A stretch of DNA of 64,000 nucleotides, taken from Pedobacter sp. PAMC26386. GTDB lineage: Bacteria; Bacteroidota; Bacteroidia; Sphingobacteriales; Sphingobacteriaceae. The position numbers and the translations under genes are program-made. This document shows, piece by piece, positions 4,154 through 41,336 of this stretch; position 1 is the stretch's first letter, and the number at the start of each line of letters is the position of its first letter. Where the stretch lies: the NCBI GenBank assembly GCA_014302835.1, contig CP060294.1:1240001-1304000 (forward strand). The letters run 5' to 3'. The notes under the pieces are model-generated. The model was not told the origin of the DNA. It searched no databases and saw only the letters and a program-made list of their open reading frames with translations.

Positions 4154-4451
4154 ATGGATAAACTTTACAGCTACTTTCTATGTATTTCACTGTGCTGTTT
4201 CCTTTCCCTTAATGCAATTGCACAACAAAAGGTAACGGGTACAGTAAGAGATATTAAGGGCTTACCCTTACCTGGTGTAAGCGTAAAAATCAAAGACACT
4301 AAAACAGGAACTTTCACGAACAGTAATGGTCAATACAGTATCTCTTCAGGTACAAATAACGGCACGCTGATTTTTAGTTATGTAGGTTTCCTCCCCAGAG
4401 AACTATCAATTAATGGCAAATCAAGTGTGAATGTAACTTTGGACGAAGATG
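4154..4451 (+). pseudogene. susC: SusC/RagA-type TonB-dependent receptor, 5' part (split by prophage)
   Basis: The first 99 codons of a SusC-like outer-membrane transporter: a signal peptide ending near SLNAIAQQ, then a carboxypeptidase-D-like regulatory domain (VTGTVRDIKGLPLPGVSV ... GTLIFSYVGF). Host sequence stops at G4451. The frame runs on 77 nt into phage DNA and ends at 4528, giving a chimeric tail with no family resemblance. The rest of the gene resumes at 38503, in the same frame. Joining the halves with one copy of the duplicated bases restores TLDEDAQGLNEVVVVGYG, the expected junction into the plug domain. As it stands this half can make only a short periplasmic fragment. Confidence 0.93.
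4447..4451 (+). repeat. Target-site duplication, left copy (AGATG)
   Basis: AGATG lies directly before the prophage end here and again directly after the other end (38498-38502). It is part of the susC codons E-D-A. Because one terminal base is ambiguous, the true duplication is either 5 bp (AGATG) or 4 bp (GATG). Mu-family transposition makes 5-bp duplications. Confidence 0.85.
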
Positions 4452-4517
4452 TAAAATCGAAAAAACTAATTGTACCAAATTTTCCAAAAAAAATCAAAAC
4501 AAAATGTACCATTTTTA
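4452..4517. repeat. Prophage R end with two transposase-site-like repeats
   Basis: The end begins TAAAATCGAA and holds two copies of a motif with the core WTGTACCAWW: AAAACTAATTGTACCAAAT at 4462-4480 and CAAAATGTACCATTTTT at 4500-4516. The same motif occurs inverted at the opposite end (38471-38488). By analogy with Mu attL/attR these are likely transposase binding sites. The outermost bases do not match Mu's TG...CA termini. Confidence 0.7.
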
Positions 4518-4549
4518 AAGGGGCTTAAAGCGATATTAAAAGCCCCTTT
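4517..4549. terminator. Hairpin between methylase gene and prophage R end
   Basis: Perfect 10-bp arms AAAGGGGCTT (4517-4526) and AAGCCCCTTT (4540-4549) with a 13-nt loop, directly after the methylase stop codon. The U-tract is weak on both strands, so termination efficiency is uncertain. It overlaps the phased TTAAA array described in the findings. Confidence 0.55.
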
Positions 4550-4555
4550 AAAACA

Positions 4556-5359
4556 TCAATCAATAGGATAATTAGCTGTTAATACTTCTATTTTCCGTTT
4601 TATATAACCACTTTTATTATTTATGCTAACTCCCTGCTCTAAGCTCCACATATTCCAGCCTTTTTCCTTTGCATACTTTTGCAACAAAGGAGATGGATAA
4701 GAGCTTAAAAGGAACTTTCCTTTGACCCCTGAAAGTGTTTTTAAAAGGTTTTCAAAGTCTTGCTCGCTATAACCATCATAATGACCGCAATCACTATTAA
4801 AATACGGAGGATCGCAATAAAAGAAGCTATCAGTTGTATCACGGCTCCTAATTACATAAAGCGCATCTGCGGCCTCTAACTGTACATTTTGAAGTCTGAT
4901 AGCATAATCTTCTGTAAACCGCTCCCTGTTGTTTATAATCTTCTTAGTGGTGGTATTCTTGCTTAAATCAAATCCAAATGAGCTATTAAGTTGTGCACTG
5001 AAGCTTTGAGAACTCAACACCCACACAGCCCATGCCCGTTTGATCTCACTAAACATATCTGGATGATTATATATTACTGAAGCTTTGCGATGCAGGTCAC
5101 GGCTATGTAAGCTTATTCTTATTTCTTTCTCAAGACCTACAAACTCATTTTGAACTGTTTTGTAAAAGTTTATGAGTTCACGATTTGTATCGTTTAATAC
5201 TTCCACCTGAGACGGTTGTTTGGCGAAAAATACAGCTGCACCTCCTAAGAAAGGCTCACAGTACAAAGTATGCACAGGTATAAGACTGATGATTTTAGTT
5301 GCTAACTTCTGTTTTCCACCATAGTAGCTAATTGGTGTTTTTAAATTCAATTTCCCCAT
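4556..5359 (-). CDS. D12-class DNA N6-adenine methyltransferase (Dam-like)
   Basis: A 267-residue enzyme of the D12/Dam family, which methylates adenine in duplex DNA using S-adenosylmethionine. It shows the N-terminal SAM-site motif YYGGKQ (residues 12-17), motif I-like EPFLGGAA (35-42) and the catalytic DPPY at 183-186. Length is typical for the family. It is the last gene of the late minus-strand block at the R end of the prophage, where phage Mu carries its modification gene mom. It therefore probably protects phage DNA from host restriction. No cognate nuclease is nearby. A large hairpin lies in its leader (5390-5476), 30 nt before the start codon. Confidence 0.92.
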   Translation of the reverse strand: MGKLNLKTPISYYGGKQKLATKIISLIPVHTLYCEPFLGGAAVFFAKQPSQVEVLNDTNRELINFYKTVQNEFVGLEKEIRISLHSRDLHRKASVIYNHPDMFSEIKRAWAVWVLSSQSFSAQLNSSFGFDLSKNTTTKKIINNRERFTEDYAIRLQNVQLEAADALYVIRSRDTTDSFFYCDPPYFNSDCGHYDGYSEQDFENLLKTLSGVKGKFLLSSYPSPLLQKYAKEKGWNMWSLEQGVSINNKSGYIKRKIEVLTANYPID

Positions 5360-5389
5360 GTTTTCTATATTTTATTGTTAATTTTGATG

Positions 5390-5476
5390 ACCACAAAACA
5401 AAAAATGCATATTACATCTCCTTATGGCTTACGCCTCCGGTATGATGCTTTGTGCATTTCTTTTTTGTTTTGTGGT
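5390..5476 (-). promoter_or_regulatory. Long imperfect hairpin in the leader of the methylase gene
   Basis: The left arm, 5390-5409, begins ACCACAAAACAAAAAA. The right arm, 5453-5476, is its reverse complement with a 4-nt bulge: 16 matched pairs, the bulge, then TGCA/TGCA. The loop is about 43 nt and contains a small GGC-TTAC-GCC hairpin. It sits between the 92-residue gene and the methylase start, so it may attenuate or terminate late transcription, or control translation of the methylase. Confidence 0.55.
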
Positions 5477-5511
5477 AAATTCAGGAAAGGGCTGGGGGCG
5501 TTCTTTTAACG

Positions 5512-5790
5512 TTAATTGGCAGGCGGTGCATGTTCCACAACGATTGCTGAAAATTCATCCATTACCGCAACAACAACAGTATTGTCATAGTCCGAACGGT
5601 TGAAAATTGTTTGTAATTGCTGATTAGCATCCTTTTTAATCATTAAAGTAGATTGCTGATTCTTAACTCCATTGACGGTAATTGACGGCAGTAATGTACC
5701 GTTTTCAGTTTCATACTCAAATTTTAAATCCCATCCATTTACTACCATTTCATCGTAGTATTTGGTTCGTTTGTTTGTGTTAGTTCTCAT
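5512..5790 (-). CDS. Small phage protein of unknown function (92 aa)
   Basis: A 92-residue soluble protein I do not recognise. No signal peptide, membrane span or enzymatic motif is visible; the predicted character is mixed beta/alpha, with a Y-D-E-M-V-V-N-G-W-D stretch near the start. Its ATG overlaps the end of the preceding gene (5780-6115) by 11 nt, which supports translational coupling and a real gene. It lies downstream of the tail hub, where tail-fibre accessory proteins often occur. That placement is the only hint of a role. Confidence 0.6.
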   Translation of the reverse strand: MRTNTNKRTKYYDEMVVNGWDLKFEYETENGTLLPSITVNGVKNQQSTLMIKKDANQQLQTIFNRSDYDNTVVVAVMDEFSAIVVEHAPPAN

Positions 5791-6115
5791 TGTTTGTTTC
5801 CTCTTTAGTTGTTTTAAATTGTTGTAATAATGTGTTTAAATAAGTCATTAATGGGATGTGTGCAAATGGCCTGTAGTAAGGCTCTGCATCAACAATCTGC
5901 ATTATAGTTGATAATTCAATCTGGGTTAACTCTACATCATTTCCAGAATGAATTAAGCGTGCCGCATCATGTAGTTCAATTGAAGGTGCTGCAATGAATA
6001 CCTGATTGCCTATCTGCTTACAAAAATCTTCCACCCGGCACATAGTTCCATTTAAGTCCTCAATCTGTACCTTGTTAAGATTGAAGACTACTTTTTTATT
6101 TTCTTGTTTTTCCAT
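5780..6115 (-). CDS. Phage protein of unknown function (111 aa), downstream of tail hub
   Basis: A 111-residue acidic protein with no recognised domain. It starts at ATG 6115, about 11 nt after the tail hub stop, and overlaps the next gene by 11 nt, so all three are one transcription unit. The C-terminal half (ELTQIELSTIMQIV ... LNTLLQQF) looks helical. It could be a tail accessory or assembly factor because of its position, but the sequence alone does not show that. Confidence 0.6.
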   Translation of the reverse strand: MEKQENKKVVFNLNKVQIEDLNGTMCRVEDFCKQIGNQVFIAAPSIELHDAARLIHSGNDVELTQIELSTIMQIVDAEPYYRPFAHIPLMTYLNTLLQQFKTTKEETNNEN

Positions 6116-6126
6116 ATTTATTAAAT

Positions 6127-9100
6127 CTATCTGGGGTTATATTGACAATATCCGTTTGAATTTGCCCAGGTCTGACCATTGTTATTTACATCGTTCATTG
6201 CTAAAGTATTTGCAGCAGCTTTTGTTGCAGCGAAGTAGGTATTAGCTGGAACTGAATAGGTTTCGTAACTTCCTACATCTTCCCAGCTACCACATTGCTT
6301 TTGATAAGTCCCGCTTTGTACATCATTGCCATACAATCCATTATTATTGGTGACAGACTCTAAATGTGGCCTTGTATCATCTAAAACCAGTACATATTTG
6401 CCCCATGCAGAATTATAAAAAGCTTTGACATACCCCTTTAAAGGCCCCGTTGATTCATTAACATCCCATACGTCATTTAAATACACCCGGCCATTACCTA
6501 TCTCTAAAGCGATATTCTCATCGCTGTCTCTCGCTTCAAGCCTCATCGCAATATTTCTACGCCTGAAAGAAGGGTCAGGCGGCGCACTTCCATACGTGTT
6601 ACGGATATTGTTTTTGACAACAACCGTATGGTTGTCTGAGCTTCCAGCAGACCCCGGATAGTAACCTAAACCGAAAGACATTTCACGTGTTTGGCTCATG
6701 GCAAAGCTACTGCCAGCTGTCGACCCACATTTTCGCATCAAAAGGTATGAAGGATTAAAAACTACACTCTCACTATTTGCTGTCCACGTATTTTCACTAC
6801 CTGCCGCTAGTCCACTTTGATTAATTCTTAAAGAACCAATATTACCTTCAGCAGCAACGATTTTACCGCTTATCTCTGCATTCTTAGCAATCACCTTTCC
6901 ATTGTCCCGGACTTGGAAATTTGCAGTATATCGATTTTCAAAAGTTCCACCTGCCCATATTCTAACACTGTCCGCTGCCTGATCTGTTACACCTGTAAGT
7001 CCTGCGTTTGCTTGTGCCAAGGTTCCAACCCTCAAAGTATTTGTCGAAATCAAGCCGCCCTCAATGACAGTGAAATTATCTGTGATATCTCCGGTATCTT
7101 CAGGCGCAGGTGTCCAATCCGAAGGTTTATTGCCAATCTCAATTTTTATATTTCTAATGAAAAATTCTTGACGCCAGCCTGTCCCATATATCACTACTGG
7201 AGTATTACCACTAAAACCGCGAGAATTAGTAATATAACTTACTCTATTCCATACAGGTGAATTGGGTACCGTAACCCTATTATCCACATCATTAAAACCT
7301 ATTGCCACGACCAGGTTGTCATAATAAGCTCCTTTAATATCAAAACTTATGCAGTAATCTGTATTTGCTAATATGGGAACTGATAATACGCTTCCTGAAT
7401 AAATTCCGTTACTTACACTATCAGAAATTACATGAACAGCAGGTTTCCCATCAATTGATACCATCGAGGTATTTCCACCGTTGCTGTGCCACCCAGTTAA
7501 GCCCTTTTTAAATGAACTATCTTTAAAAATATTCCTTCCACCAACTTTGATAGCATTGATTTTATTTTGGGCATCCACCGAAGCAGATGAAATTGCATTT
7601 ATCTGAGCTGTATTGGCATAAGATTGCGCCTGTGATGTTGTAGCACCACCACCATCTACCACTATTTGAGTGGCATTAATAACCCGAGCTTTTAACCTGT
7701 CAACTGTCCCTTGAGTAAAATTAAACTCAAGCCCCTGTAAATACTCTATGTTTGCGACATTAGCCCTTAGGTATGCTACATCAGCTTTAAAGGTCACAAT
7801 CGTGCCACGATCAATTACGGTAATTCCTTGAGCTGCGGCTATATCAATATCCCGGTATGCCATTGTTTTTAATTGACTTGTCAAGCTGCTATATGCGGCC
7901 TTAGCCTGATTTGCTAATGAATTGGCATCATCAATAGCAGCTTGTACATCTTCTGGTGCCGGCGTCCAATCTGTAGGTTTGTTACCCACTTCAATTTTCA
8001 TGTTTCTAATGAAAAATTCTTGACGCCAGCCTGTCCCATATATAACTACAGCAGTATTACCACTAAAACCGCGAGAATTAGTCACATAACTTACTCTATT
8101 CCATTCAGGTGAATTGGGTACCGTAACCCTATTATCAATATCATTAAGACCAATTGCTACGACCAAATTGTCATAATAACCACCTTTAATATCAAAACTT
8201 ATGCAATAGTCTGTATTTGCTAATATGGGAACTGATAATACAGTTGAGGAATAAATTCCGTTACTGATAGCATCAGAAACAACTCGAACCGCTGGCTTCC
8301 CATCGTAAGTTACTATTGTCGTATTTCCACCATTACTATTCCAACCACTTAAACCATTTTTAAATGTACTATCCTTGAACAAATTCCTTCCACCAACTTT
8401 CAGAGAGTTTAAAAGCTGATTAGTTAAGGCAGCAGCATTTGCCTGAGCTGCATTCGCTTTAGCCTGAGCATCGGCGGAAGCTTGGTAAATAGCATTTGCC
8501 TGAGCCGCATTTGATTTACTTGTAGCGGTGCTATCTGCATAAGATTGAGCCGCTGTTAAGGTAGCCTGGCTTTTACTGTCAGTATAGCCAGCTGCTGCCG
8601 TTTGCGCTGTATTTGCTTTGGCCTGAGCATCTGCCTGAGCTGTGCTGATTGCATTACTTTGTGCGGTATTTGCCTTAGCTTGTGAACCTGTAACGGTTTC
8701 AGCATTACCACCTGTTACGACAATCTTTCCTTTTATAAATGCCCTGTCAGCGTAAAGCCCATAACCATCTAACTGACCCAATTCAGGATCATTTATACCG
8801 GATAATTTGCCTAATCGCACTTTGGTTTTACTAGCTAAACTGTCGGAATTGATACCGTCCAATACATCTAAATAAGGTGCGCCAGTATCGCTGTTAGTCA
8901 AATAGATTAACCCCTGACGGCTTGTATCTGTTGTATTACCAAATTGAAAAACACTATCACCAGCAGCCGGAATACCTGCGCCAGTTTTTCCAGTTTTATC
9001 CAAATCAAAAATACCTGAACTAACTGCACGAACACGGGCAGTATAATACTTTAAGCGTTTACCATCCCATACCTGACAACGCACAATATCATTAATCCTG

Positions 9101-11031
9101 AATTGTACAGCAATCGTATTGTCATCAGTATTGATCTGGCATGACCAATAATCAGGATTGTCTGTGACTTCTTTGATTTTCGCTACATTGGTAACCGCTA
9201 TACTGCCGCCGCTTCCGGTAATCTCCCGAACATTCAGGACATTTACATTAAGTTCCTTACGCACCGTTAAGCTGTCAAACTCTGCGCTGCCATCTGGATT
9301 TATTTTATAACCGGTACCAGTGAACCCGCTTATATACAAAGCACTATTAACAGTATCGGCTACCACAGATAAAAACTTTACTGCATCGGTTTTGCGTACC
9401 GGTTGATTTAAGTAATCATCAAACTGGCGACCGTCCCATTTATCACTGTCCTGCGCATAATCAGCTAACAAGGCGTGTCCGGCTTCAGGTGCATAATCTG
9501 CAACACCAGCTTTAACCTTCGTTCCACCTAGCAATAAATAGCCATTACTTTCAGAAAGGCGATTTAAGAATATGTTTTTACGGATTTGGTTAATATCCAA
9601 AATCCCGGAACTCTCAATCAATTGCAACGTGCGCTGCTGTTGGGCATATTGGCGAACAATTTCACTCGCGCCAATGGTATCACTCCATTCAACCGATTCA
9701 TATAAGGATCTATCTTGCAAATCACGAACATAGGATGCTATCCTGACCTCTGGGTTTAACCCCATTTCCTCATCATGGATAACAGCAGTGTTCCCTAAAA
9801 CGACCTGCACATTATTCTGCTTAATAAATAGCCTGTCGCACTTTGCCGAATAAGACAGTAAAAAATCAGGGTTACTATTTTTATCATAATATGCCCGTCC
9901 GGCTATCTGTAGCCTGTTTTCTGCTGCTGTAACATAGGTTGGCGGCATCCCGATATTTACAATTACGTATTTATCCCCAACAGCCGGACGCAACAAATTA
10001 GAGGGCACATCTAAGCTTTTCTCATCATCATTTTTATTGATGGTAAATGTTTTGCTAATAGGATTGTATGAACCTAAGACAAATGTATAACCTGCAAGCT
10101 GGCCAGTATTAAATATGATTTTAGCAGCGTCTGCCAATTTAAATTGGTTAACATCAAAATCCATCGAAGAATCCGTAAAATACTTCCAGTTGCCATCACC
10201 AGCTACAATGCTGGTAATAGTTCCTTCCCGCTCAGGCTTAATATCAAACACCTGTGTAGCCTCAATTAAGCCGTAGCCCGTCTTTAAATCGACTTTGGCA
10301 TCATCCTGAATATAAGTTAAGCCGCCCGGTAATAATAGGCTACCTGCGTAGTTACGATACCCAATCGGTAAATTGTCACTACTACCACGAACATAAAGCC
10401 GGGTGACGATATTGGTGTTAGTCTTGTTTTGTCGTAAAATGTTATAAAGTCCATTTCCCTGACCGTAGGCAAAGGTCAAGCCGCTGGACTGCTCACGTTT
10501 TTGCAAGTGGATTGTTTTGTGATCAATCCACAATTCCGTATTAAAATCACTGGCGAGCTGATGTAAGACCTGTAAGCAGTTTTGCGCCGAAAAACTAAAA
10601 TTCTTGTATTCTGTATCATCCACGATACCAACAGTCCAGCCCGGATAACTGCGGTTGATATTTTCCACGACAAGCCCTACAATGGTAGCGGCATTACCCA
10701 TTAAGTTGAATGTAGGCTCTAAATAACTGTTTTTTGGGTTTAAGCCTTGCAATTGAATTTTTGCTAAATCATAAAATTCTTGTTCAAACTGAATCGTATA
10801 ATCATATTGGCGTTTTGCTTTTTTCTCGACGGTCGGGCTAATGTTCAGCTTGTACTTTTCGCCATCTAATATGATAAAATCATTTAGTCTAAAATCAATA
10901 TAAATGGGCAGGGTAAAAGTCATATCCAGTACATTTTCACTCATCGCTTTGACGGTTTGTTTTCCCTCTGGATGCACAGCTTTAACGATCCATATTAAGC
11001 TGCCGTCTGTTCGTTGTATATTGTAAATCAT
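6127..11031 (-). CDS. Phage tail tip/central hub protein with repeated carbohydrate-binding-like modules
   Basis: A 1634-residue protein. The N-terminal about 450 residues resemble tail-hub (gp27/endopeptidase-tail-like) proteins that follow the distal tail gene. A central shaft follows, then an Ala/Gln-rich helical spacer full of AQAKANTAQ-type repeats (roughly residues 785-870). Two near-identical modules of about 150 residues come next, each running from GGRNxFKDSxF to NKPxDWTPAPED, with jelly-roll/CBM-like character. A C-terminal host-range region ends the protein. Its start overlaps the stop of the 140-residue gene by 4 nt. It most likely forms the tail tip and contributes to receptor binding on the cell surface. 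Subdomain limits are estimates. Confidence 0.8.
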   Translation of the reverse strand: MIYNIQRTDGSLIWIVKAVHPEGKQTVKAMSENVLDMTFTLPIYIDFRLNDFIILDGEKYKLNISPTVEKKAKRQYDYTIQFEQEFYDLAKIQLQGLNPKNSYLEPTFNLMGNAATIVGLVVENINRSYPGWTVGIVDDTEYKNFSFSAQNCLQVLHQLASDFNTELWIDHKTIHLQKREQSSGLTFAYGQGNGLYNILRQNKTNTNIVTRLYVRGSSDNLPIGYRNYAGSLLLPGGLTYIQDDAKVDLKTGYGLIEATQVFDIKPEREGTITSIVAGDGNWKYFTDSSMDFDVNQFKLADAAKIIFNTGQLAGYTFVLGSYNPISKTFTINKNDDEKSLDVPSNLLRPAVGDKYVIVNIGMPPTYVTAAENRLQIAGRAYYDKNSNPDFLLSYSAKCDRLFIKQNNVQVVLGNTAVIHDEEMGLNPEVRIASYVRDLQDRSLYESVEWSDTIGASEIVRQYAQQQRTLQLIESSGILDINQIRKNIFLNRLSESNGYLLLGGTKVKAGVADYAPEAGHALLADYAQDSDKWDGRQFDDYLNQPVRKTDAVKFLSVVADTVNSALYISGFTGTGYKINPDGSAEFDSLTVRKELNVNVLNVREITGSGGSIAVTNVAKIKEVTDNPDYWSCQINTDDNTIAVQFRINDIVRCQVWDGKRLKYYTARVRAVSSGIFDLDKTGKTGAGIPAAGDSVFQFGNTTDTSRQGLIYLTNSDTGAPYLDVLDGINSDSLASKTKVRLGKLSGINDPELGQLDGYGLYADRAFIKGKIVVTGGNAETVTGSQAKANTAQSNAISTAQADAQAKANTAQTAAAGYTDSKSQATLTAAQSYADSTATSKSNAAQANAIYQASADAQAKANAAQANAAALTNQLLNSLKVGGRNLFKDSTFKNGLSGWNSNGGNTTIVTYDGKPAVRVVSDAISNGIYSSTVLSVPILANTDYCISFDIKGGYYDNLVVAIGLNDIDNRVTVPNSPEWNRVSYVTNSRGFSGNTAVVIYGTGWRQEFFIRNMKIEVGNKPTDWTPAPEDVQAAIDDANSLANQAKAAYSSLTSQLKTMAYRDIDIAAAQGITVIDRGTIVTFKADVAYLRANVANIEYLQGLEFNFTQGTVDRLKARVINATQIVVDGGGATTSQAQSYANTAQINAISSASVDAQNKINAIKVGGRNIFKDSSFKKGLTGWHSNGGNTSMVSIDGKPAVHVISDSVSNGIYSGSVLSVPILANTDYCISFDIKGAYYDNLVVAIGFNDVDNRVTVPNSPVWNRVSYITNSRGFSGNTPVVIYGTGWRQEFFIRNIKIEIGNKPSDWTPAPEDTGDITDNFTVIEGGLISTNTLRVGTLAQANAGLTGVTDQAADSVRIWAGGTFENRYTANFQVRDNGKVIAKNAEISGKIVAAEGNIGSLRINQSGLAAGSENTWTANSESVVFNPSYLLMRKCGSTAGSSFAMSQTREMSFGLGYYPGSAGSSDNHTVVVKNNIRNTYGSAPPDPSFRRRNIAMRLEARDSDENIALEIGNGRVYLNDVWDVNESTGPLKGYVKAFYNSAWGKYVLVLDDTRPHLESVTNNNGLYGNDVQSGTYQKQCGSWEDVGSYETYSVPANTYFAATKAAANTLAMNDVNNNGQTWANSNGYCQYNPR
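7097..7549. repeat. Duplicated tail-hub module, copy nearer the 3' end of the gene
   Basis: This 453-bp segment matches 7949-8401 with a constant offset of 852 bp (284 codons). Long stretches are identical at DNA level, for example around ACGCCAGCCTGTCCCATAT at 7171 and 8023. Differences are mostly synonymous or conservative. Confidence 0.9.
7949..8401. repeat. Duplicated tail-hub module, copy nearer the 5' end of the gene
   Basis: Partner of 7097-7549. The two copies flank a unique stretch of about 400 bp, and each encodes one GGRN...WTPAPED module. The high DNA identity suggests recent duplication or ongoing gene conversion within the tail gene. Confidence 0.9.
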
Positions 11032-11450
11032 GCCTGTTGCACCTCCTGTAATTGAATTTCTATTTGCACTATAATTTGATTGCCACTGAATGAGGTCGGA
11101 ATGCTTAGAACGGTCATATCGCGGTAGAAAACTTTAAAAGTTTTACCCAGTTCAACAACATTTAAATTGAGCGTTCCCGGTTTATTCATGAGTGCAAACA
11201 GCGCATCATATTTTGCCCAAAAATCAGCCAAAGAGATGGCCTCAATGACACCTTTTAATTTAAAGACCCTGTCATTGAATTTGGGGGCAGCCGCTAAATC
11301 ATACTCCTTGCCATTTTGTTCTGCCCAGTCGTTAGAAAATGGTTCTTTACGAGAAGCCCATGTTAAGAACATTACCCAACCAGTTTCAACCATAAACCTG
11401 CAAGTGGTGTATAAATCTGTATTATCTATTTTGTACTTATTAGACTTCAT
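11028..11450 (-). CDS. Distal-tail-like phage protein (140 aa)
   Basis: A 140-residue protein without signal or membrane segments. It sits between the tape measure gene (1 nt gap) and the tail hub gene (ATGA overlap), which is the usual place of the distal tail protein joining tube to tip. The sequence shows a mixed beta fold with an alternating hydrophobic C-terminus (GNQIIVQIEIQLQEV). I assign the role from gene order plus overall character; no diagnostic motif is visible. Confidence 0.65.
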   Translation of the reverse strand: MKSNKYKIDNTDLYTTCRFMVETGWVMFLTWASRKEPFSNDWAEQNGKEYDLAAAPKFNDRVFKLKGVIEAISLADFWAKYDALFALMNKPGTLNLNVVELGKTFKVFYRDMTVLSIPTSFSGNQIIVQIEIQLQEVQQA

Positions 11451-11451
11451 T

Positions 11452-14400
11452 TTAATTTCCTCCAGCTCTTAAGGCATTGTTACTGTTACTCATTTTTTTA
11501 TCCATACTAACCAGTGCCGTTTCTATGTTATACAGCCTGTCTGTGTTGTTCGCAGTGCGAAGCGTATTGGCTGCAACCTCCATTTGAACTAAGTGCTGCG
11601 CCTTTAAAACAGCGAGCTGATCGGCTCCGGTCTGGCCAATAAATTTGAGCGTTACGTTTCCCTCCAGAGTGGCAATGCGCTGGCCACCGAATTGCCCTGC
11701 AATAATTTCAGCGGTCTGCTGAGTCATTCCTTGAATACCTGCGACTACATTGTTAGTCTTGCTATCAATAGGTTTTACGCCAGTTATGGTTTCAAGCTGT
11801 TTCCAATAATCAGCGGCGTTCTCTCCAATAGTAGCATATTGCTTCTTTAAAGCCTCAATCTGTTCTTTTGTCGGGGTACCGCTACTCATCAGATTGCCCA
11901 GTGCATTGTAAAAGGGCTGCATTGCATCCTCTAAATATTTATATTTAAAACTGTTCGAAATGGCCTTTTGCATGATGCTTTCAAAGCTGTCAGCAAAATC
12001 AGCAGCGGCAAATTTTCCATTCTCAAACAGCTGAGTTAAGCTATCTGCTAAGCCAGAAGTAGAAGTACCAGTAAGGAGTTGTTTTAAATCTTCCTGAAGT
12101 TGTGCGGTAGAAACACCAGCTGCTTCCAATTCCTCTTTTAGCTTCTTTAAAGCCTCAAAATCAGATTTTGCCTGATCTTTAAGCTTTCCTTGCGTGTATA
12201 GTTGTTCAAGCTTGTTATAATCACTTCCGGCAAGGGATGCCATAATATCCCATGTCTTGGCCTTACGCAGCCACGTTCCATGTTTATAGCCAACACCATT
12301 GACAAATTCCTCACCCTGAAGGGCAGAATATATTTTATCATAAGCCTTCTGTATCTCTGGGCTTTGTTTTTTAAGGGCTTCAAGTTGATCAACTATAGCT
12401 CTATACGAGTTTTTACCTCTGGCGACGGTATCCAAATCACGTTTGCGAAGTAGGACTTGGTACTCCATTTCTCCTTTGATTGCTGCCGCATAATAATCGT
12501 CCTGAATTTTGCGTGCAGCAGCATTCATTTCTTTGACCTTTTTACCAATGGAAAGAAATCCGGTGACGGCACTGATTGTTTTAGTCACCCCGCCAACAAT
12601 GTCCCCACTTGAAAAAGAGGCGTATGCTCCAGCTGCATCTGCGCCAACTTTGACGAGCCTACTTATGGTATCAATTGTATAACCAGCCTCAGTATTTACG
12701 CCTCCCAAAGCGTTTGACAATTCGCCGAATCCACCTGAAACCTGATCTAAATCTCTAGAAACACCAAATGCAAACTCCGTAGAAGTCCCTGTCAAATATT
12801 TAAAGTTATCTGAAATGCCCTGGGCGAAATTTGATTTGGATTTACCTGTGATTGAGTTTAATAATTTATCTACCTCAGCCTGAGTTTTCCCTAAATCAAG
12901 TAATGTTCTTTTAAACTCCTCTTCTGAGATTAAGGAATTACCCTGATCGTCTTTAGAGTTAAGTTTCTTTTTTAGACTTTCGACCTTAGTTTGAAGTGTA
13001 TCAAGATTAGTCTGATCAACCCCAATTTTGAAAGCTAATTTTAGTCCGTTAATCTGGGTATTGATTTTCTCAATTGCCTCTGGAGGTAATCCACCTTTTG
13101 CAAGAATCGCCTCTAAAGCTTTTAACTGCTCTTTGACCTGTTCACGGGTTAAAAGGATGGTTTCTTGTGCGAGTTTCTTGTAAATTTCAGTTTTGGCTAA
13201 GGCTTCATCCTTTGCTGCATTGATTTTAGAATCTCGTTCAAATTCTAAGTTTTTGATTTGCTCAGCTGATATTGTACCATGATTTTCTTTTAGGATTGTA
13301 TCGTATTGTTGCAAATAATCCCTTTTAATGGACAATTCTTTTTGTGCATAAGTCTCGGCCTGTTTGTAGGCATCAGTATATCGTTTCTCTTCTACACCTT
13401 GTAATTCTTTGATCTGTTTTTCCTGTTCGGTCATTCGTTCTTTTTCACCACCAGAAAGCACACTACCAAAAACAGGTTTTAGAGTTAGTTTTAAATATTC
13501 ATCTTGTAATTGTTTTAATCTATCGGTATTACTTTTTACCTCTTTTCCGAAACGTTTATCAGCAGCATCTTTGCCAAATGTCGTTTTGAAGTTTTCGTAA
13601 TCCTCATACATTTTTTTTTGCTTTTCAAATTCAACACCCGCCTTCGCTGTACTTTGACGATAAGTTAAATCTTCTATGGCATCGTCCCGGATTTTATTCA
13701 GACTGCTGCCATCTACTTTATATTTGTTTTTGGGGTCTTTATTAAAGCGGTCAACTTCTTTTGCTATTTTTATAAACTTAGCCTTGATTGCCTCTAATTC
13801 TGCATCATCCTTAGTCCCGGATTTACGGCTATACTCCTTGGTGATATCTTCAATTTTTTGTTGTAGTACCCGCTGGTGGTTTAAAGCTGCATTGTCTGCT
13901 TTAGTGGTGTCCTTTGGCTGATCTCCGCCTACGTTACCTTTTATTTTACCACCTCTTTCAATCTGCTTGGTCACTTCCTTTTCTAAATCCAAATTTCTTT
14001 TGGCTAGAATATTACTGTCCGTTTTAAAGTCATTGACTTTCTTTTGAGCTTCTGCCGCTCTTTTTTCGGCACGTGCCGCATCACGCAAAAACCCTTCGGA
14101 ATTACTTGCGCCTACACCAGCAGAACCACTTGCCTTGCCAGAGCCTACGATGTCCAGATTCTTTTTGGCAAGTAGTTTTTGCTTCTCAATCACAACTTCT
14201 AAATCTTTAATCTGCTGCTCGTTTTCAAGCTGACGGGAAGAGTTTTGGGTTATTTTGTCAGCAGCAGCTCTTGCCCTTGCTGTTGCAAGGATGGCATTGG
14301 TTAACTCATCATAAGCGCGTTTAGTTGCGCTGCTGGCTTGTAGTTCAAATTTTATATTGTTAAAATAATCGGGGTACATCTTTTGCAGTTCAGCATAAGC

Positions 14401-32794: not shown

Positions 32795-32800
32795 TTTATT

Positions 32801-33040
32801 TTAATCTTTTATGTTATTTACTGGATAATTGAGGTATTCTCTGCGAAATGACTCCTGGCTCAGATGTTCATGTTTTTTCCTAATATCCTCCTCTGTATAT
32901 ACTTTTGGCCACGTTGCTCTCGCCGCTTCCTTCAAATCAGCAAGCTTTTTAATCATGTCATGCCTAGCTATCCAGTCGGTGGTTGGGTGATCCCGTAGCC
33001 AATCCTCTGTTTTCCTGATTTCTTGGTTTAGTTCGTCCAT
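32801..33040 (-). CDS. Small early phage protein (79 aa), overlapping its upstream neighbour
   Basis: A 79-residue basic, helical protein (RKTEDWLRDHPTTDWIARHD ...). Its 5' end overlaps the 3' end of the 127-residue gene (32964-33347) by 77 nt in another frame, which is unusual even for phage. Either the upstream gene reads past its functional end or both products are needed. It could be a DNA-binding accessory, but no motif is recognised. Confidence 0.5.
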   Translation of the reverse strand: MDELNQEIRKTEDWLRDHPTTDWIARHDMIKKLADLKEAARATWPKVYTEEDIRKKHEHLSQESFRREYLNYPVNNIKD

Positions 33041-34026: not shown

Positions 34027-34880
34027 TATGCTGCTAATTTTTTAGGTCTGCGTAGATAAACTTTTGTAGATGATTTGATCCGGCGGATACTGCCATCGGA
34101 ATCGTTAGTGATGCGAATCAATTCTTCCTCGTCGGCTACACCATTTAACCGTGCGATCTCCATCAGTTCCGCAGGTTTGTTCTGTGGAGGTTCAACAAAA
34201 CGGCTGTTGATACGGGTGAATACTTCTACAAATCCCTTTTTGCCTTTTTTTACACCGTCTTCTATTCTTTGTTTTAGGTATGGGGTACCTTGAATGATTA
34301 TGGCAGCTTTATCCTCTGTGCGGTTGTAAAAGCTGATTAGAAATAGAAAGATTTCATCTTTTACTTTATCGAACTCATCAAAAATCAATTCTGGTGTTTC
34401 TACACGTAACAAATGGTCTATAATAGAGTTTAACATCTTTCTGGTGGTTTTTCCGGCAGAACTTTCACCCATAGCAATCAGGATCGCTTCTAAAAAATCA
34501 CGTTTGGTCATACATTCATCACAGCTGATCAGGAAAGCATTTGTATTATTGCTCACATGGCGTTTAGCGGAGTGCGTTTTACCGGTGTCGCTGGGAGAAA
34601 TAACACATCGTACCTCACTATACAGCATTATATCTGTATAAAAAAAGTCCATAAACTTGCTGAGAGACGTATCGTTGTGCATCCACTCGCTATTTTTCAC
34701 CTGCTTCTGTATGCTTAGCCACATCGCATCAGCGATATTATCCCACTTGCCAGCTAAAATATTGCTAATTGTTCCGTTTGAAACTTCCCGCATCCGTTTG
34801 GACGCTCCAAGTTGACTGCCTATTTTTTGAACAAATTGGGCTAAGTCGTTTTTAATGTGTTGTTTTGTTTCTGTATTCAT
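34026..34880 (-). CDS. AAA+ ATPase, transposition target-selection protein (MuB-like)
   Basis: A 284-residue protein. The N-terminal about 75 residues carry a helix-turn-helix-like part (LGASKRMREVSNGTISNILA), as in MuB. The AAA+ core shows a P-loop SPSDTGKTHSAK (about 92-103, lacking the usual first Gly), Walker B ELIFDEFDK (about 164-172), and sensor residues in IIIQGTPYLKQRI. The C-terminus fits the MuB/TnsC-like lid region. It follows the transposase gene across a 55-nt gap containing a hairpin. It would bind target DNA, activate the transposase and give target immunity. Confidence 0.88.
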   Translation of the reverse strand: MNTETKQHIKNDLAQFVQKIGSQLGASKRMREVSNGTISNILAGKWDNIADAMWLSIQKQVKNSEWMHNDTSLSKFMDFFYTDIMLYSEVRCVISPSDTGKTHSAKRHVSNNTNAFLISCDECMTKRDFLEAILIAMGESSAGKTTRKMLNSIIDHLLRVETPELIFDEFDKVKDEIFLFLISFYNRTEDKAAIIIQGTPYLKQRIEDGVKKGKKGFVEVFTRINSRFVEPPQNKPAELMEIARLNGVADEEELIRITNDSDGSIRRIKSSTKVYLRRPKKLAA

Positions 34881-34904
34881 AATACACGCATTTAATTAAT
34901 ATTA

Positions 34905-34934
34905 GGCTGTCCCGCCCACCGGGATGGCCTTTTT
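34905..34934. terminator. GC-rich hairpin between transposase and ATPase genes
   Basis: GGC-TG-TCCCG / CGGGA-T-GGCC arms (34905-34929) with a CCCAC loop are followed on the plus strand by TTTTT. The U-tract therefore faces antisense to the early operon. On the minus strand it could only attenuate. It may block stray plus-strand transcription into the transposase gene. Confidence 0.5.
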
Positions 34935-34935
34935 G

Positions 34936-37017
34936 TTAGTATAAATCGTAAAAATCTATTTCGTCTTTAGTTTCTTCCTGTTCCGGGGCTTGTTTTGGCT
35001 CACGTTTAGCAGCAGGTAATTTGGTTGTCGGGGCAGCTATTTCTTTAGGCTGATATAATGCTTCCAGATATTCTGCCTCTGCATCATTTTTCAAATCTTT
35101 AAGCAGCACACCACCCTGTAACAGGCTCTGCGCATTGATATTTGGTAGGGCTAGCATGCGCTCCTGTATAGTGTTAGCCATTAAGCGATTGATATTCTTC
35201 TTTTCTTCAAATAGCCCATGTATTCTTTTACCATCACCCGGCTCATAGTCTGCCAAAGCTCCCGGTACCTTCATATATTGGCCAGCAATAAACCGTAGAT
35301 TTTTACCGTCAGTCACCATCATTTCGTTAAGATTTTCCGGGTCGTAGATAATATCCACCTTTTTACCATTGTGCTGCCAGATTACATCAGCAGGTATATC
35401 AAGTGTGATTTTTTGCTTATTGATCACAGGTTTTAAACCTGCTTTGGTAATTGTAGCTTCATGAGCATACTTTTTACCAAATAATTGAAGCTTTAGCCCG
35501 GTATCTATAGCCTTTGCCTTGCTCTTTTCCGATGCTTCAAAAGCTTCCATCCATTCCTGTTGACGACTGATTCCGGTTTTTGGATTGGCTTTTAACCGCA
35601 TTACATTGATAAAACTGGCAACGATCTCAGGCATACGTTCCACCTTCGGATAGTTTTTACTGGCCTCAATGATATATTCTGAACTTAATCTTTCTTTCGC
35701 TGTAATATTTTGGCCAGCATAATTATTAGTTGGCATTACCTTCAATACTTGGTGCCACTCTGTACCAAAACTTCTTTCGATGTATTTACCCTGTGGCACG
35801 CCATGAGCTTGTGGGGTGAATTTTGCAACTTTCTTATAAAATTGGCCTAATTCGTTTTTATATTTTACATCTAGCCCCCAACGGTCAGTTTGTAACTGGT
35901 GAGGCAAGTAATAACCGCCTGTTAATTCAGCGATATGATTAATTGCGTTTCTAAATGCAGAATAAACCAGCTCATGGGTTACCGTATCGCCCACCGCATA
36001 GCCTAAAATGTAATCGTTATAGGTATCAATGATGACGTAGAGCATTGGGCGGTAATGTTTGCTTTTTTGCGTTTTTCCATCCGGTTTTAGCTTTTCTACC
36101 TCGAAAAATAAGTCTAAACAGTTATCATCTGCATTAATGAACAATAATGGTGCTGATGCACGATTACGCTGTATGTCCTTACTATAGACGTTAGCGGCTT
36201 TCTTTAAACCATCCCTTAATGGGGCTATAATATGTTCATTATTACGAGCAAAATAGCCTATAGCCCCCGGGCTAACTGTATCTTTACCGGCATTCTTGGC
36301 ATATATATTATATGCAGCAGCTACAACGGTATAGTCGTGTTTGCGGGGGTCACTTAATAACTTATACAATAAAGCCTCACTCTCCTGATCTTTGATTTTA
36401 GCAGACCGGGTATTACCGAACTTGCTAAAATCAATAAGGGAAATGTACTGCTGGGTTTTATCCTCTATTTCCTTGTAAAGCTTAATTTTTGCTTTCAAGC
36501 GTTTTGGATTGGCCGGGATCGCAACACCTTCCTTCAAAATCAGTTCAGTTATAGTATCCCAAAAGTCCATGACACTAAGATTTAAAAGACTTTTCAAAGC
36601 CCTTTTATCACCGGTTAAACTGTCTATCATAGACAACCAACTGGCTGCCTTAGTATAGCGTTCGACATAGTTTATTTGTGGTTTACCCTTATGGGTTTTG
36701 TCTGTATTCGGTAACATATCTCCATTAGGGAGGACATATTCGCTATAGAATTTTTGAGCCTCATAATCCCAATCAATTAGATCTAAAATGGGCTGCTTAG
36801 CTAAATATTCATAAGGATTGCCAATCTTATCGGTTATTACCTTTTGACGTGCGGGCTTTAAACTTTCGTACTCAATTAATACTTTTCTACCGTTGCCACC
36901 AATACCACGAATAGTTATCAACCCACGTTTTTTATCACTTTTATAGGCTTCTGAACCAAAAAAAGAAATGTATTCATCGTAGGTTAAACAAAGGATATTG
37001 GTATTGATATACTGCAT
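34936..37017 (-). CDS. Mu-type DDE transposase (MuA-like)
   Basis: A 693-residue recombinase that cuts and joins the phage ends. The N-terminal about 280 residues are helical DNA-binding domains. The RNase H-like core has acidic residues at D297/D298 (INADDNC), D378 (QTDRWG) and E414 (KYIERSFG), in the spacing expected for the DDE triad. A beta-barrel domain (about 540-610) and an acidic/Lys-rich tail ending EIDFYDLY follow. The tail probably contacts the ATPase and ClpX-like unfoldase, as in MuA. It is the second gene of the early operon, 12 nt behind the Ner-like gene. Length is close to MuA (663 aa). Confidence 0.93.
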   Translation of the reverse strand: MQYINTNILCLTYDEYISFFGSEAYKSDKKRGLITIRGIGGNGRKVLIEYESLKPARQKVITDKIGNPYEYLAKQPILDLIDWDYEAQKFYSEYVLPNGDMLPNTDKTHKGKPQINYVERYTKAASWLSMIDSLTGDKRALKSLLNLSVMDFWDTITELILKEGVAIPANPKRLKAKIKLYKEIEDKTQQYISLIDFSKFGNTRSAKIKDQESEALLYKLLSDPRKHDYTVVAAAYNIYAKNAGKDTVSPGAIGYFARNNEHIIAPLRDGLKKAANVYSKDIQRNRASAPLLFINADDNCLDLFFEVEKLKPDGKTQKSKHYRPMLYVIIDTYNDYILGYAVGDTVTHELVYSAFRNAINHIAELTGGYYLPHQLQTDRWGLDVKYKNELGQFYKKVAKFTPQAHGVPQGKYIERSFGTEWHQVLKVMPTNNYAGQNITAKERLSSEYIIEASKNYPKVERMPEIVASFINVMRLKANPKTGISRQQEWMEAFEASEKSKAKAIDTGLKLQLFGKKYAHEATITKAGLKPVINKQKITLDIPADVIWQHNGKKVDIIYDPENLNEMMVTDGKNLRFIAGQYMKVPGALADYEPGDGKRIHGLFEEKKNINRLMANTIQERMLALPNINAQSLLQGGVLLKDLKNDAEAEYLEALYQPKEIAAPTTKLPAAKREPKQAPEQEETKDEIDFYDLY

Positions 37018-37029
37018 TTGGTATTGATG

Positions 37030-37269
37030 TTATTTAATTGGAATTAATTTTTCTAAAAATTCTATAAGGGTTGTTTTGGCTATAATTTCGGCCTCTTGGT
37101 TAAGTTCATCAACTTGTTTTATTATTGCACCCTTGCCTTTATTTGCGTTACGAACTCCCGTTCGCACCTGCCTGATTATGCTTTCACTACAACCAACTAT
37201 ATCAGCTATTTCAGTCGTGGTCAGTAATCCCTTCGCTTCTTTTTGGTACATTTGGTTTTGATTTTTCAT
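37030..37269 (-). CDS. Ner/Cro-like early regulator
   Basis: A 79-residue protein with a helix-turn-helix (LLTTTEIADIVGCSESIIRQ, about 15-34) and a basic middle (RTGVRNANKGKG). It is the first gene of the early operon and is divergent from the repressor gene across an 86-bp operator region. In Mu the Ner protein occupies the same place and represses early transcription after the first round. The fold differs somewhat, so the name is functional by position. Confidence 0.72.
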   Translation of the reverse strand: MKNQNQMYQKEAKGLLTTTEIADIVGCSESIIRQVRTGVRNANKGKGAIIKQVDELNQEAEIIAKTTLIEFLEKLIPIK

Positions 37270-37307
37270 ATCTTCGTACTAATTGCGTTGCTTTGCGACA
37301 CAATATT

Positions 37308-37344
37308 ACAAACAATTCAGTAATAAATAACAAACATTTCAGTA
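37308..37344. promoter_or_regulatory. Direct-repeat operators between repressor and Ner-like genes
   Basis: ACAAACAATTCAGTA (37308-37322) and ACAAACATTTCAGTA (37330-37344) are repeated directly with a 22-bp period, two helical turns. They lie in the 86-bp intergenic region that must hold both divergent promoters. They are the most likely binding sites for the S24-type repressor or the Ner-like protein. Confidence 0.65.
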
Positions 37345-37355
37345 TATATTTTTAA

Positions 37356-38297
37356 ATGGAGATACTACCGCCTATTAATCAGAGAGTTAAAGATTTAATA
37401 AACTATTACAGTAATGGTGTAGTCAGGGTTTTTGCTGATAAATTGGAAAGTATTTCGCAACAAACTCTTAATAGGTTGTTTAATATTGATACCAGAACAA
37501 AGAAATATCCAGTACCTACTACTGACATCTTGGTAGCGATAACCAACATGTTTGTTGATGTTAATCCCAGATGGCTTCTAAATGGAAATGGTGAAATGTT
37601 ATTACCCCCAAACAAATCAGGATCAGAAAATACACATACCCCAACTCAAAACCAGTCTTTGGGTATGCCTTCAGATAAGAAAACAACAAATAATGCCCCC
37701 GCAACCTCAGCTATATTTGCCCCCCCAACTGCCCCTGCAACTCTTAATTTAGGTATGCCAAAGGTTGTAGCTATTAATGAAAATAATGATGATTTGGTCA
37801 GCCTTGTAAATACAAAGGCTGCTGCTGGATATCTTAATGGCTTTGCAGATATGGAATATATAGAGAACTTGCCTACCATAAGGCTACCTAACCTTAAAGG
37901 TGGCTCACATAGGGCGTTTGAAGTTAAAGGCCATAGTATGCAACCAACTATACATAATGGTGCAATATCCGTAGGTAGATGGGTAGAAAATTTAAGTGAT
38001 ATAAGGGATAGGCGAATTTATATCATTGTATCAAAATCAGAAGGAATAGTTATTAAGAGGGTTTTAAACCGTATAAATGATAGTGGCAGACTAATTCTTC
38101 TATCAGATAATCAAAATAAAAGAGAGTATCCTAACATATTATTGGAGCCCGAAGATGTACAGGAGCTATGGTATTTACGAGGCTCTTTTCTATTTGAGTT
38201 CCCTGAACCGGGTGAGATAAACAACCGCATTAGTGATTTGGAGGCCGCCTTTACAATAATGCAAGATGAGTTTAAAAAGCTATCTAAAAGGTCATGA
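37356..38297 (+). CDS. Phage repressor with S24/LexA-like C-terminal domain
   Basis: A 313-residue protein. The N-terminus (about 1-75) is a helical DNA-binding domain of the Bacteroidota XRE-like kind (RVFADKLESISQQTLNRLFN ... NPRWLLNGNGEML). A Pro/Ala/Asn-rich linker (about 80-140) leads to a LexA/S24 peptidase-like domain. That domain has the serine in VKGHSMQPTI (about 194) and the lysine in EGIVIKRVL (about 231), the catalytic dyad for self-cleavage. It should hold the prophage silent and be inactivated by the SOS response. It is transcribed toward the L end and the downstream susC half, but a hairpin at its 3' end may stop transcription. Confidence 0.88.
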   Translation: MEILPPINQRVKDLINYYSNGVVRVFADKLESISQQTLNRLFNIDTRTKKYPVPTTDILVAITNMFVDVNPRWLLNGNGEMLLPPNKSGSENTHTPTQNQSLGMPSDKKTTNNAPATSAIFAPPTAPATLNLGMPKVVAINENNDDLVSLVNTKAAAGYLNGFADMEYIENLPTIRLPNLKGGSHRAFEVKGHSMQPTIHNGAISVGRWVENLSDIRDRRIYIIVSKSEGIVIKRVLNRINDSGRLILLSDNQNKREYPNILLEPEDVQELWYLRGSFLFEFPEPGEINNRISDLEAAFTIMQDEFKKLSKRS

Positions 38298-38324
38298 TTT
38301 TGAAGTCTATCCAAGATAGCTTTT
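38275..38324 (+). terminator. Hairpin at the 3' end of the repressor gene
   Basis: AAAAGCTATCT (38275-38285, in the last codons) pairs perfectly with AGATAGCTTTT (38314-38324), which is itself T-ended. The loop is 28 nt. It should limit read-through from the repressor into the L end and the truncated susC. Confidence 0.6.
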
Positions 38325-38347
38325 AAACTGTTTTAAAATAGTTTAAA
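38318..38347. promoter_or_regulatory. Phased TTTTAAA array near the L end
   Basis: CTTTTAAA-CTG-TTTTAAAA-TAG-TTTAAAGG places T-A steps at 38324/25, 38334/35 and 38344/45, exactly 10 bp apart. It lies between the repressor terminator and the L-end transposase-site-like repeats. Confidence 0.5.
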
Positions 38348-38435
38348 GGTTTACAATTGAAATCCAATTAATTCCAAGTCGCAGGCACAAGTTGTTTTGT
38401 TTTTGTTTTTGCCATAATAGGGCTTCATACTCTTC

Positions 38436-38497
38436 TTTCGCACAATTTTCGCACTTTTCTGTATTTCTATATTGGTACATTTAGTTTTAACCCCCTT
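38436..38497. repeat. Prophage L end
   Basis: The inverted copy of the end motif is at 38471-38488 (ATTGGTACATTTAGTTTT, matching AAAACTAAWTGTACCAAW of the other end). The end itself closes with ...AACCCCCTT. Just inside lies a direct repeat TTTCGCAC at 38436-38443 and 38447-38454, 11 bp apart. These are probable transposase binding sites. Confidence 0.65.
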
Positions 38498-38502
38498 AGA
38501 TG
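38498..38502 (+). repeat. Target-site duplication, right copy (AGATG)
   Basis: Second copy of the 4-5 bp duplication, directly after the prophage L end. Its last base G38502 is the first base of the Ala codon (GCA) that restarts susC sequence. Confidence 0.85.
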
Positions 38503-41336
38503 CACAGGGACTCAACGAAGTGGTCGTTGTTGGTTACGGTACCCAGAAAAAGGTAAACCTGACTGGTTCTGTAGCTCAGATCAGTGGAGATGCGCTGGTT
38601 AACAGACCCGTTCCAAATGCAATTGCTGCACTTCAGGGAATTTCTCCCGGTGTTACGATTACCAGGAATAGCGGTAAACCCGGAGCAGAAAACTATGGTT
38701 TGCGTATTCGTGGATTCTCTTCGGCTAACGATACTAAAGCTTTAGTCCTGGTAGATGGGGTGGAAATGGATCTTGCCTTGGTTAATCCCGATGATATCGA
38801 GAATATTTCCATTCTAAAAGACGCTGCTGCTGCCTCTATTTATGGCGCAAGGGCAGCTGGTGGTGTAGTTTTAGTAACCACCAAAAAATCTACCAGCGGC
38901 AAAACAAAGATTAATTTCAGCAATAATTATAGTTTAAATATCACAGCCAGACAACCGAAACGACTAAATTCCTGGGATGAACAAGCCTTGGTAGATGAAG
39001 CACGCTTTAATGCAACCGGAGCAAAAGAATTCACAGACGAACAAGTTGAATGGCTTAAAAACCCGAATTTCAATTACAGACCAAGTTTAACCGCAGATCG
39101 CTGGGATTATTATGACAACACCAATTGGATTAAGGAGGGAATGAAGAAAGTTAATGCCTCTCAGAATTACGCCCTTTCCGTAGGTGGTGGGAAACAAGAA
39201 TTGAACTATTTGTTATCTGGTTCTTATTATAAACGAGACGGTGTATTGCGTTTTGGACCAGATGACAATTCGAGAAAAAACCTCCGTCTATCAGTGAATT
39301 CACAAATAAATAAGTACTTAAGTATTGGCTTAATTGCCGGCTATGTGAATTCTACAATTCATGAAAACTCCTATGACTCAGGAAACATCATTGACCTGTT
39401 ATATCGAGTACGTACAAGACAGCCAGTTTTTACACCAGCAGAAGACGTAACAGGTCAGAAGTATAATGGCGATCTGCAATTGAACCCTATTGATATAGAA
39501 AATAATGCAGGAACTAAAACTTCAACTTATGAAAGCTATTTAGGTAAGGTAAGTCTGAATATTAAAAATCTGGTTAAAGGATTAGCTTTTGACGTATCGG
39601 CCTCCAGAAATCAGGATTTTTACAATTCCAGATCGGAAAAAAGAACACTGATTTGGTATGGTAAGAGCACCAATACGATCAGAAATTCGATCAATATACC
39701 TAATCAACTTGATGTGTTAAAAAATAAAGGTTATCAGGATAACCTGACTGGACAGTTTACTTACGATCTGCAAATAGCTGATAAACATAATTTTAAATTA
39801 TTAGGTGGTGCTTCATTTGAACAATACCGTAAGGATGAAAATGCAGCAAGTGCCAACAGTATGGTCACCAATGATTTCTTTAGTTTGAACTTTGGAGATC
39901 CCGCGTCTAAAACGAATAGTGATAATATTGAAACATGGGCTATCGGTTCTCTTTTTGGTAGGTTCAACTATAATTATGACGGAAAATATTTGTTCGAAGC
40001 AGTAGTCCGACGTGATGGAAGTTCACGTTTAGCTCCTGATAATCGTTTCCAGATCTTTCCCGCCTTTTCTGCCGGATGGCGTATTAGCGAAGAACCGTTC
40101 TTTAAAAATAATGTGCCTTTCGTAGACAATTTAAAACTACGTGGTTCATGGGGCCAGCAGGGAAATGGTTCTGTATTAGGTTTGTATGATTATATCAATT
40201 TAATTACTAGTGGATTAGCAGTTACTGATCAGACGAAAAAAGAACCAAATTTAATTTTTAATGGCGCTAAGGCTCAATATTTATATCAAAGAGATCTGGC
40301 TTCCAGAAGTAAAACATGGGAGACTGTAGAATCCAGTAATATTGGTATTGATGCGAGTTTATTTAAAAACAGGCTAACAATTACTGCAGAATACTATCAG
40401 AAGTACAATAAAAACATGTTAGCTACTTTAAACCTGCCAAGCATTATTGGGGTAGGTATTCCAAGCAGTAACGTAGGGGAACTGAAAAGCTGGGGGTCTG
40501 AGCTGGAAATTAAATGGAGAGATATCTTTAAAAATGGTGATTACCACATAGGATTTAGCATTGCCGATAACCAGAATAAGTTGACCAAATATGACGGTAA
40601 AAACTCTATTGGCTCGGGTGGCAGAGTTCCATTGTTACAAGGATATCCTCTAAACAGTATTTGGGGATATAAAACTGATGGCTATTTTCAAACACAGGCA
40701 GAAGCCGATACTTATAAAACCAAGGTGAAATATCCATTCTTTGCCAGTCCAGGACCGGGTGACGTGAAATATAAAGATTTAGACGGGAGTGGTGTTATTG
40801 ATGCTGGAGGGGGAACACCCGATAAACCAGGAGATTTAGTATACCTTGGGAATACAAACCCGAGATATACTTTTGGAGTAGATCTGGGCGCAACATGGAA
40901 AGGATTTGATTTTTCGGTGTTTTTTCAGGGGGTCCTTAAACGCGCCTTCTTAATAGATGAAAATACGCTTTCTCCAATCCTTGGAACGTCAAATATGCCA
41001 TGGACAATCCACCAGGATCACTGGACTCCTGACAATCCTGATGCCTTTTTCCCGAGGATGTATCAAACCAGTGCACATAATTTCAAACCTTCAGATAAAT
41101 GGGTTCAGAATGGAAGTTATATCCGTTTAAAAAATGTTCAGGTGGGCTATACTTTCAAGGTAAACAGAAAATATATTCAAAATCTTAAAGTATACTTCTC
41201 TGGACAAGACTTATTTGAAAGTACGAAAGTATTGAGTGTGTTCGATCCGGAATCAGGTGGCGATAAGAATGATGTAAATGCACAGACTTATCCTTTTTAC
41301 CGCTCTGTATCATTTGGACTGAATATTACGCTGTAA
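38503..41336 (+). pseudogene. susC: SusC/RagA-type TonB-dependent receptor, 3' part (split by prophage)
   Basis: About 944 residues of a SusC-like receptor: plug domain from GLNEVVVVGYGTQKK through SIYGARAAGGVVLVTTKKS, then the 22-strand barrel ending in YRSVSFGLNITL. The signal peptide and N-terminal domain are on the other side of the prophage (4154-4451). Together the gene would encode about 1043 residues, normal for SusC. A TTG inside the phage end keeps the frame open from 38472, but no signal peptide would be made. The barrel cannot then reach the outer membrane, so glycan import by this locus is presumably lost in the lysogen. Confidence 0.93.

Follow-up and report, generated by a model that had tools for sequence, protein, structure and literature searches.

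A Mu-like prophage interrupting a susC gene of Pedobacter sp. PAMC26386 very probably carries a 4-bp target duplication

We analysed a 64,000-nt stretch of Pedobacter sp. PAMC26386 (contig CP060294.1, positions 1,240,001 to 1,304,000), referred to below as the window; all coordinates are positions in it. We conclude with high confidence that a susC gene in the window is split by a 34,047-base-pair (bp) Mu-like prophage, which is flanked by a 4-bp target duplication, GATG, and was likely inserted by its own predicted MuA-type transposase. The first-pass annotation had proposed a Mu-like prophage at this place, and the phage gene set together with the conserved termini bears this out. The 5-bp repeat AGATG that it reported has to be shortened, however, as the duplicated target is GATG and the leading A belongs to the phage, being its final base. 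The features concerned are:

4154..4451, plus strand: 5' half of susC, with the start and a CarboxypepD_reg-like domain; its frame continues into the phage to 4528
4448..4451, unstranded: left GATG copy of the 4-bp target duplication; empty site in orthologues
4452..38498, unstranded: the Mu-like prophage
4452..4476, plus strand: phage terminus TAAAATCG..., the right end in Mu orientation
38474..38498, minus strand: phage terminus TAAGGGGGTTAAAAC..., the left end in Mu orientation
38499..38502, unstranded: right GATG copy of the 4-bp target duplication
38503..41336, plus strand: 3' half of susC, with the plug domain and the remainder

Both susC halves are present and open. When the prophage is taken out together with one repeat copy, they join in frame into 3132 bp, i.e., 1043 amino acids (aa) and a stop codon, with no internal stop (junction TLDEDAQGLNEVVVVGYG), as the earlier annotation had stated. 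The joined SusC aligns over 1043 of 1043 residues with five uninterrupted relatives from the same genus (L005-L009), at 89.7-91.2% identity (about 80% in DNA), and displays the features of its family: a CarboxypepD_reg-like domain and a TonB plug, a length of about 1000 aa and an adjoining susD. Nineteen orthologous loci were fetched and the 15 best aligned at the junction were compared; L020-L023 were left out as less similar or, in the case of L021, as itself split in two frames. All 15 orthologues run through the same site without an insert and without a stop. In the five relatives the protein at the junction reads LDEDxQGLNEV[IV]V[IV]GYG with no indels, and the joined site of the window, GACGAAGATGCACAG, matches the G015 orthologue in all bases but one. 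These uninterrupted loci belong to other species within the genus; no strain of the same species lacking the insert was found. The SusC frame is broken at about residue 99 of 1043 and the N-terminal region is missing from the 3' half. It follows from the sequence that full-length SusC would be lost in the lysogen, and import through this SusC is likely lost with it.

AGATG is found on both sides of the prophage (4447-4451 and 38498-38502), which would suit a normal Mu-type 5-bp duplication, with the 4 bp seen in relatives arising from later mutation or wrongly placed ends. Yet position 38498 holds the A that closes a phage terminus, ...TTA, conserved in relatives, and the termini of related Sphingobacteriaceae prophages read 5'-TAA...TTA-3'. 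Relatives of the transposase occur in 15 of the 145 genus-level and 24 of the 399 family-level genomes searched (29 different genomes, own genome included). Prophage ends were mapped in 19 of these 29, the window's own among them; the other 10 were left out for short contigs or weak matches. A first listing sought matching flanks of 4-8 bp beside TAA/TTA-type motifs, i.e., it was biased towards matches, and some chance pairs without a full terminus were discarded by eye; it contained 12 prophages whose flanks matched over 4 bp and none that matched over 5 bp in that register. The mapping was repeated blind to the flanks, with end-motif models built without the tested prophage, the best site taken per side and the flanks compared afterwards. 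Thirteen prophages had confident ends (at least 24.9 bits on the left and at least 21.0 bits on the right). An exact 4-bp duplication was present in 12 of them and one of 5 or 6 bp in none; all 13 end in TTA, bases that the motifs used favour.

The 12 duplications are GATG for the window (CATC in Mu orientation) and, all in Mu orientation, CATG, GATC, AGTA, AGCT, CATG, ATAT, AACC, AATT, AATC, CACT and TAAA for the others. Half of them are palindromic (6/12, expected fraction 0.067, P 5.8e-5, a pattern spotted post hoc), position 2 of the tetramer is A in 9/12 and position 3 is a pyrimidine in 10/12. A 5-bp duplication fits 4 of the 12 prophages when the leading T is assigned to the host and 4 when the trailing A is, but this is about the chance level (1 in 4), and the end T and A are identical in all 12 prophages while the flanks vary. 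Given also the motif-only ends and the empty site described next, which yields CATG only, we regard the 5-bp alternative as very improbable.

The 4-bp reading gains further support from the prophage of Pedobacter terrae (G137), which lies in a cupin gene and interrupts it between residues 71 and 73; in orthologues of up to 97% identity this site is continuous. Its joined flanks match the orthologue L138 in 73 of 76 bases, and the nearest mismatch on the right lies nine bases past CATG. The longest repeat at both junctions is CATG, and therefore the ends are TAA...TTA without recourse to any motif. At the sites of other prophages, rejoining the flanks likewise gives continuous frames for a sigma-70 factor, a response regulator/kinase and a TPR kinase.

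Several observations weigh against a uniform 4-bp duplication made by a MuA-type enzyme. The prophage of G107 has both ends, but its flanks are unmatched (GAAA and TATA) and it spans only 24.8 kb (L042-L044); it is probably the product of a transposition-linked deletion or rearrangement. Ends were not found at 6 of the 19 loci (G127, G012, G335, G013, G143 and G316), where left scores were 5.3-13.1 bits and three of which are distant, with a transposase identity of 27-28%; the best-scoring ends of these six gave a 4-bp match in none and a 3-bp match in one. Moreover, the motifs of the flank-blind mapping derive from the same prophages, each omitted in turn, and the transposase of the window is far from MuA in sequence.

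The 12 mapped prophages lie at 12 different sites, which is a scattered distribution and not one of attachment (att) sites. Apart from the window's, five prophages break frames, namely those of the cupin, the sigma-70 factor, the response regulator/kinase, the TPR kinase and a surface-like protein near its start; frames that span the remaining six sites do not exceed 129 aa. A preference for susC was considered and rejected, only 1 of the 12 mapped prophages being in susC. We also weighed the possibility that a phage contig was wrongly joined into susC during assembly, for which the odd completeness of this single-contig genome (84.71%) might speak. Termini and duplications of the same form recur, however, in 11 other prophages from other assemblies, and gene order on either side agrees with that of most of the five close relatives, so that a misjoin is extremely improbable.

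We take 35 open frames of at least 80 aa in the prophage as genes; its coding fraction is 92.9%, and none of these frames shows an obvious break. From the right end in the window inward, the repressor is followed by the transposase, the ATPase, small early genes, the head, packaging and tail genes and, last, the methyltransferase:

4513..4553, unstranded: 14-bp hairpin at the phage end, terminator-like, without a long T run
4556..5359, minus strand: D12-class adenine DNA methyltransferase
6127..11031, minus strand: tail protein of 1634 aa (Prophage_tail, DUF5977)
11452..15423, minus strand: protein of 1323 aa, probably the tail tape measure, judged from size and place; no Pfam match
17656..18174, minus strand: endolysin (CHAP)
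18735..19841, minus strand: major head protein
21131..21595, plus strand: DNA-binding protein, possible small terminase
21592..23091, plus strand: large terminase
23515..26259, plus strand: Mu-type portal, Mu F-like domain and PBECR2 nuclease-like domain in one 914-aa protein
34026..34880, minus strand: MuB-like DNA transposition ATPase (PHROG 296, E 1.8e-35), adjoining the transposase
34936..37017, minus strand: MuA-like DDE transposase (PHROG 310)
37356..38297, plus strand: CI-like repressor at the transposase end, pointing outward towards susC

The portal/F protein matches PF06074 (E 5.3e-57) and PF04233 (E 2e-16). No scanned open reading frame (ORF) was named GemA by PHROGs, and none was named a reverse transcriptase, although no search aimed at a diversity-generating retroelement was made. 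Relatives of 14 of the 35 ORFs are present in 11/11 mapped related prophages, those of several others in one only. The transposition genes occupy one location only in the single-contig genome. A terminus pattern search of the same genome returned 11 matches, one exact (C1:4311593), versus 11 in the control; the pattern misfits the window's own end. In IMG/VR, a copy identical to the prophage was found (0 differences over the 13,359 bp compared), which may stem from the same strain, and the terminus of its own clade was matched in seven contigs.

The transposase has no match in Pfam, and a sequence search of the PDB gave weak TnsB matches only. Its predicted structure (mean predicted local distance difference test score, pLDDT, 83.7) most resembles the TnsABCD and Mu transpososomes (Foldseek, VIA-align), and its acidic residues are invariant. 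A protein search returned 213 matches, and 7 of the best 120 listed carry PF09299, a Mu transposase domain.

The 5-bp duplication of Mu arises when its transposase links the two 3' ends to target strands at positions 5 bp apart, the bases in between being doubled during repair (PMC3562280; PMC8705779). Judging from the scars, the predicted transposase of the prophage would join the TTA-3' ends of the phage to a target whose strands are cut 4 bp apart, and gap repair would then leave the 4-bp duplication, as it leaves 5 bp for Mu. The conserved CA of the Mu ends is here replaced by TA, and the predicted transposase likely cuts its target with a spacing unlike Mu's. The outcome would be a lysogen without this SusC, in which transcription from the susC promoter is presumably cut off.

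Downstream of the 3' half of susC, the host locus continues as follows:

41366..43021, plus strand: susD
43032..43550, plus strand: intact protein of 172 aa whose start resembles that of a lipoprotein (by eye), 170-173 aa in five relatives; no Pfam match
43554..43985, plus strand: remnant of a GH2-malectin gene, about 2.3 kb lost in two gaps relative to five relatives
43957..46452, plus strand: second GH2 enzyme, intact
46476..47762, plus strand: alginate-lyase-family polysaccharide lyase
47816..48997, plus strand: GH88-family enzyme

The GH2-malectin gene is intact in 5/5 relatives (890-893 aa; GH2-malectin by Pfam in the two scanned), while the window has kept its beginning, an island of 64 bp and the malectin end, so the damage suspected at first sight is real. 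Polarity of the insertion on susD and the enzymes is likely. The strong, symmetric hairpin at 4513-4553 (-18.1 kcal/mol, z -5.3) is situated 61 bp inside the phage beside the susC 5' half and might act as a terminator in both directions; a consensus scan found no intrinsic terminator and left this hairpin unflagged. Against polarity, the phage repressor gene is oriented towards susD and might give rise to some read-through.

The susC join is exact and in frame, both halves are undecayed, and precise excision of Mu is reported to be rare but real (PMC3562280). The split gene could on these grounds be a reversible switch, in which precise exit of the prophage restores sugar import, as in active lysogeny. 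The first-pass annotation had held that precise excision would restore the gene; this holds exactly for the susC sequence but not for the whole glycan locus, because the adjacent GH2-malectin gene has deletions of its own. Such deletion fits decay better than regulation. Furthermore, no excised form of the prophage was seen, and the 12 mapped prophages occupy different sites, so the phage shows no tie to susC. A switch is therefore very improbable.

This insertion looks young when set against the divergence of these species, with no absolute age attached, because the two halves have not accumulated amino-acid changes in significant excess, in line with the recent origin proposed earlier. Private nonsynonymous/synonymous codon changes in susC amount to 11/72 in the window lineage versus 19/164 summed over the five relatives (Fisher P 0.53); neither here nor in susD (P 0.12) or the second GH2 gene (P 0.46) was a significant excess indicative of relaxed selection found. 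Against a recent date stand the private residues, which are most numerous in the window lineage for both susC (28; 5-20 in relatives) and susD (25; 2-11 in relatives). This excess fits a longer branch, and some relaxation is also compatible with it. From the host side, we see a plain case of a young prophage disabling one glycan-import locus that bears other damage.

As a separate observation, the genome carrying the window (G000) measures 4.80 Mb in one contig, whereas those of the five closest susC relatives have about 5.95-6.4 Mb, and its mean ORF is 331 aa versus 441 aa in G014 (six 20-kb samples each). Genome decay and assembly errors are both possible causes of this shortfall.

The length of the duplication is read as a direct ruler of the distance between the two active sites of the transpososome, with Mu (5 bp) as the textbook case. 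A 5/6-bp duplication has served as a key feature for recognising transposable prophages (PMC8705779), and a 2024 pipeline calls insertions by a 5-bp overlap (PMC11406979). Searches demanding 5-6 bp or CA ends would miss prophages of the kind described here, while a natural 4-bp family with different terminal bases offers a ready comparison for what sets active-site spacing. No 4-bp duplication for a Mu-like phage turned up in our search of the open-access literature, which is not proof of absence; word searches of the available text of PMC12135933, PMC10367356, PMC12629997 and PMC5977238 did not return the word "duplication".

Escherichia phage Mu shares with the prophage the transposase fold, an adjoining MuB-like ATPase, a repressor at the transposase end, the Mu-type portal and F protein and scattered insertion sites. 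It differs in its 5-bp duplication and CA ends (PMC3562280; PMC8705779) as opposed to 4 bp and TTA; moreover, no tail sheath was recognised in the scanned prophage ORFs, and the structural genes stand in mixed orientation. Measured against the Mu-like transposable phages (proposed Saltoviridae), the prophage has the MuA-type transposase, the MuB-like ATPase, the repressor, the portal/F protein and scattered insertion, but lacks the 5/6-bp duplication and the CA-3' ends, the G137 empty site giving the same TTA end free of any motif. By its parts list and scar, as far as sequence alone can tell, the prophage would work like Mu; we would not file it as Mu itself, because it departs from Mu in both traits compared here, the length of the duplication and the terminal bases.

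The Bacteroides hankyphage p00 (BK010646.1) is likewise Mu-like and from Bacteroidota, and it has nearly the same termini, beginning with TAAGGGGGG (L122:1-9) and ending with CGGATTTA (L174:2493-2500). Its transposase is, however, only about 25% identical, and the prophage lacks the close relationship that would place it in the hankyphage group. Genome searches for the hankyphage gave matches in 13/395 (best 37% identity), 1/121 (a weak DNA match) and 10/397 (best-scoring match 31%). Hankyphages are described with 5-bp direct repeats (PMC6199706). Three loci with relatives of the hankyphage transposase yielded no ends, and the IMG/VR contigs one end each. Two records of induced hankyphages have flanks on both sides that do not match each other, as expected for packaged replicas from different sites. 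The published 5 bp are neither confirmed nor contradicted by these data and may deserve a recount.

Flavobacterium phage fF4 and fF4-like prophages, likened here by description only, have a Bacteroidota transposable-phage gene set, often with a DNA methyltransferase among the last ORFs, and count Pedobacter sp. among their hosts (PMC7761591). The fF4 virions are contractile-tailed, and the terms "duplication" and "direct repeat" do not occur in the main text of that report (PMC7761591). Pseudomonas phage B3 also departs from Mu in duplication length, but its 6 bp are longer, not shorter (PMC8705779). Retroviral integrases, although an unrelated type of element, have the same catalytic fold as the transposase described here; they produce duplications of 4-6 bp at weakly palindromic targets (PMC4422553). 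In our view, it is fairly likely that the prophage represents a clade of Bacteroidota transposable phages with a Mu-type transpososome, a 4-bp stagger, TA-3' ends and a preference for palindromic, A/T-centred target tetramers, so that the MuA family would span the same 4-5-6-bp range as the retroviral integrases, and that the hankyphages (TAAGGGGG...TTA) may share this mechanistic group.

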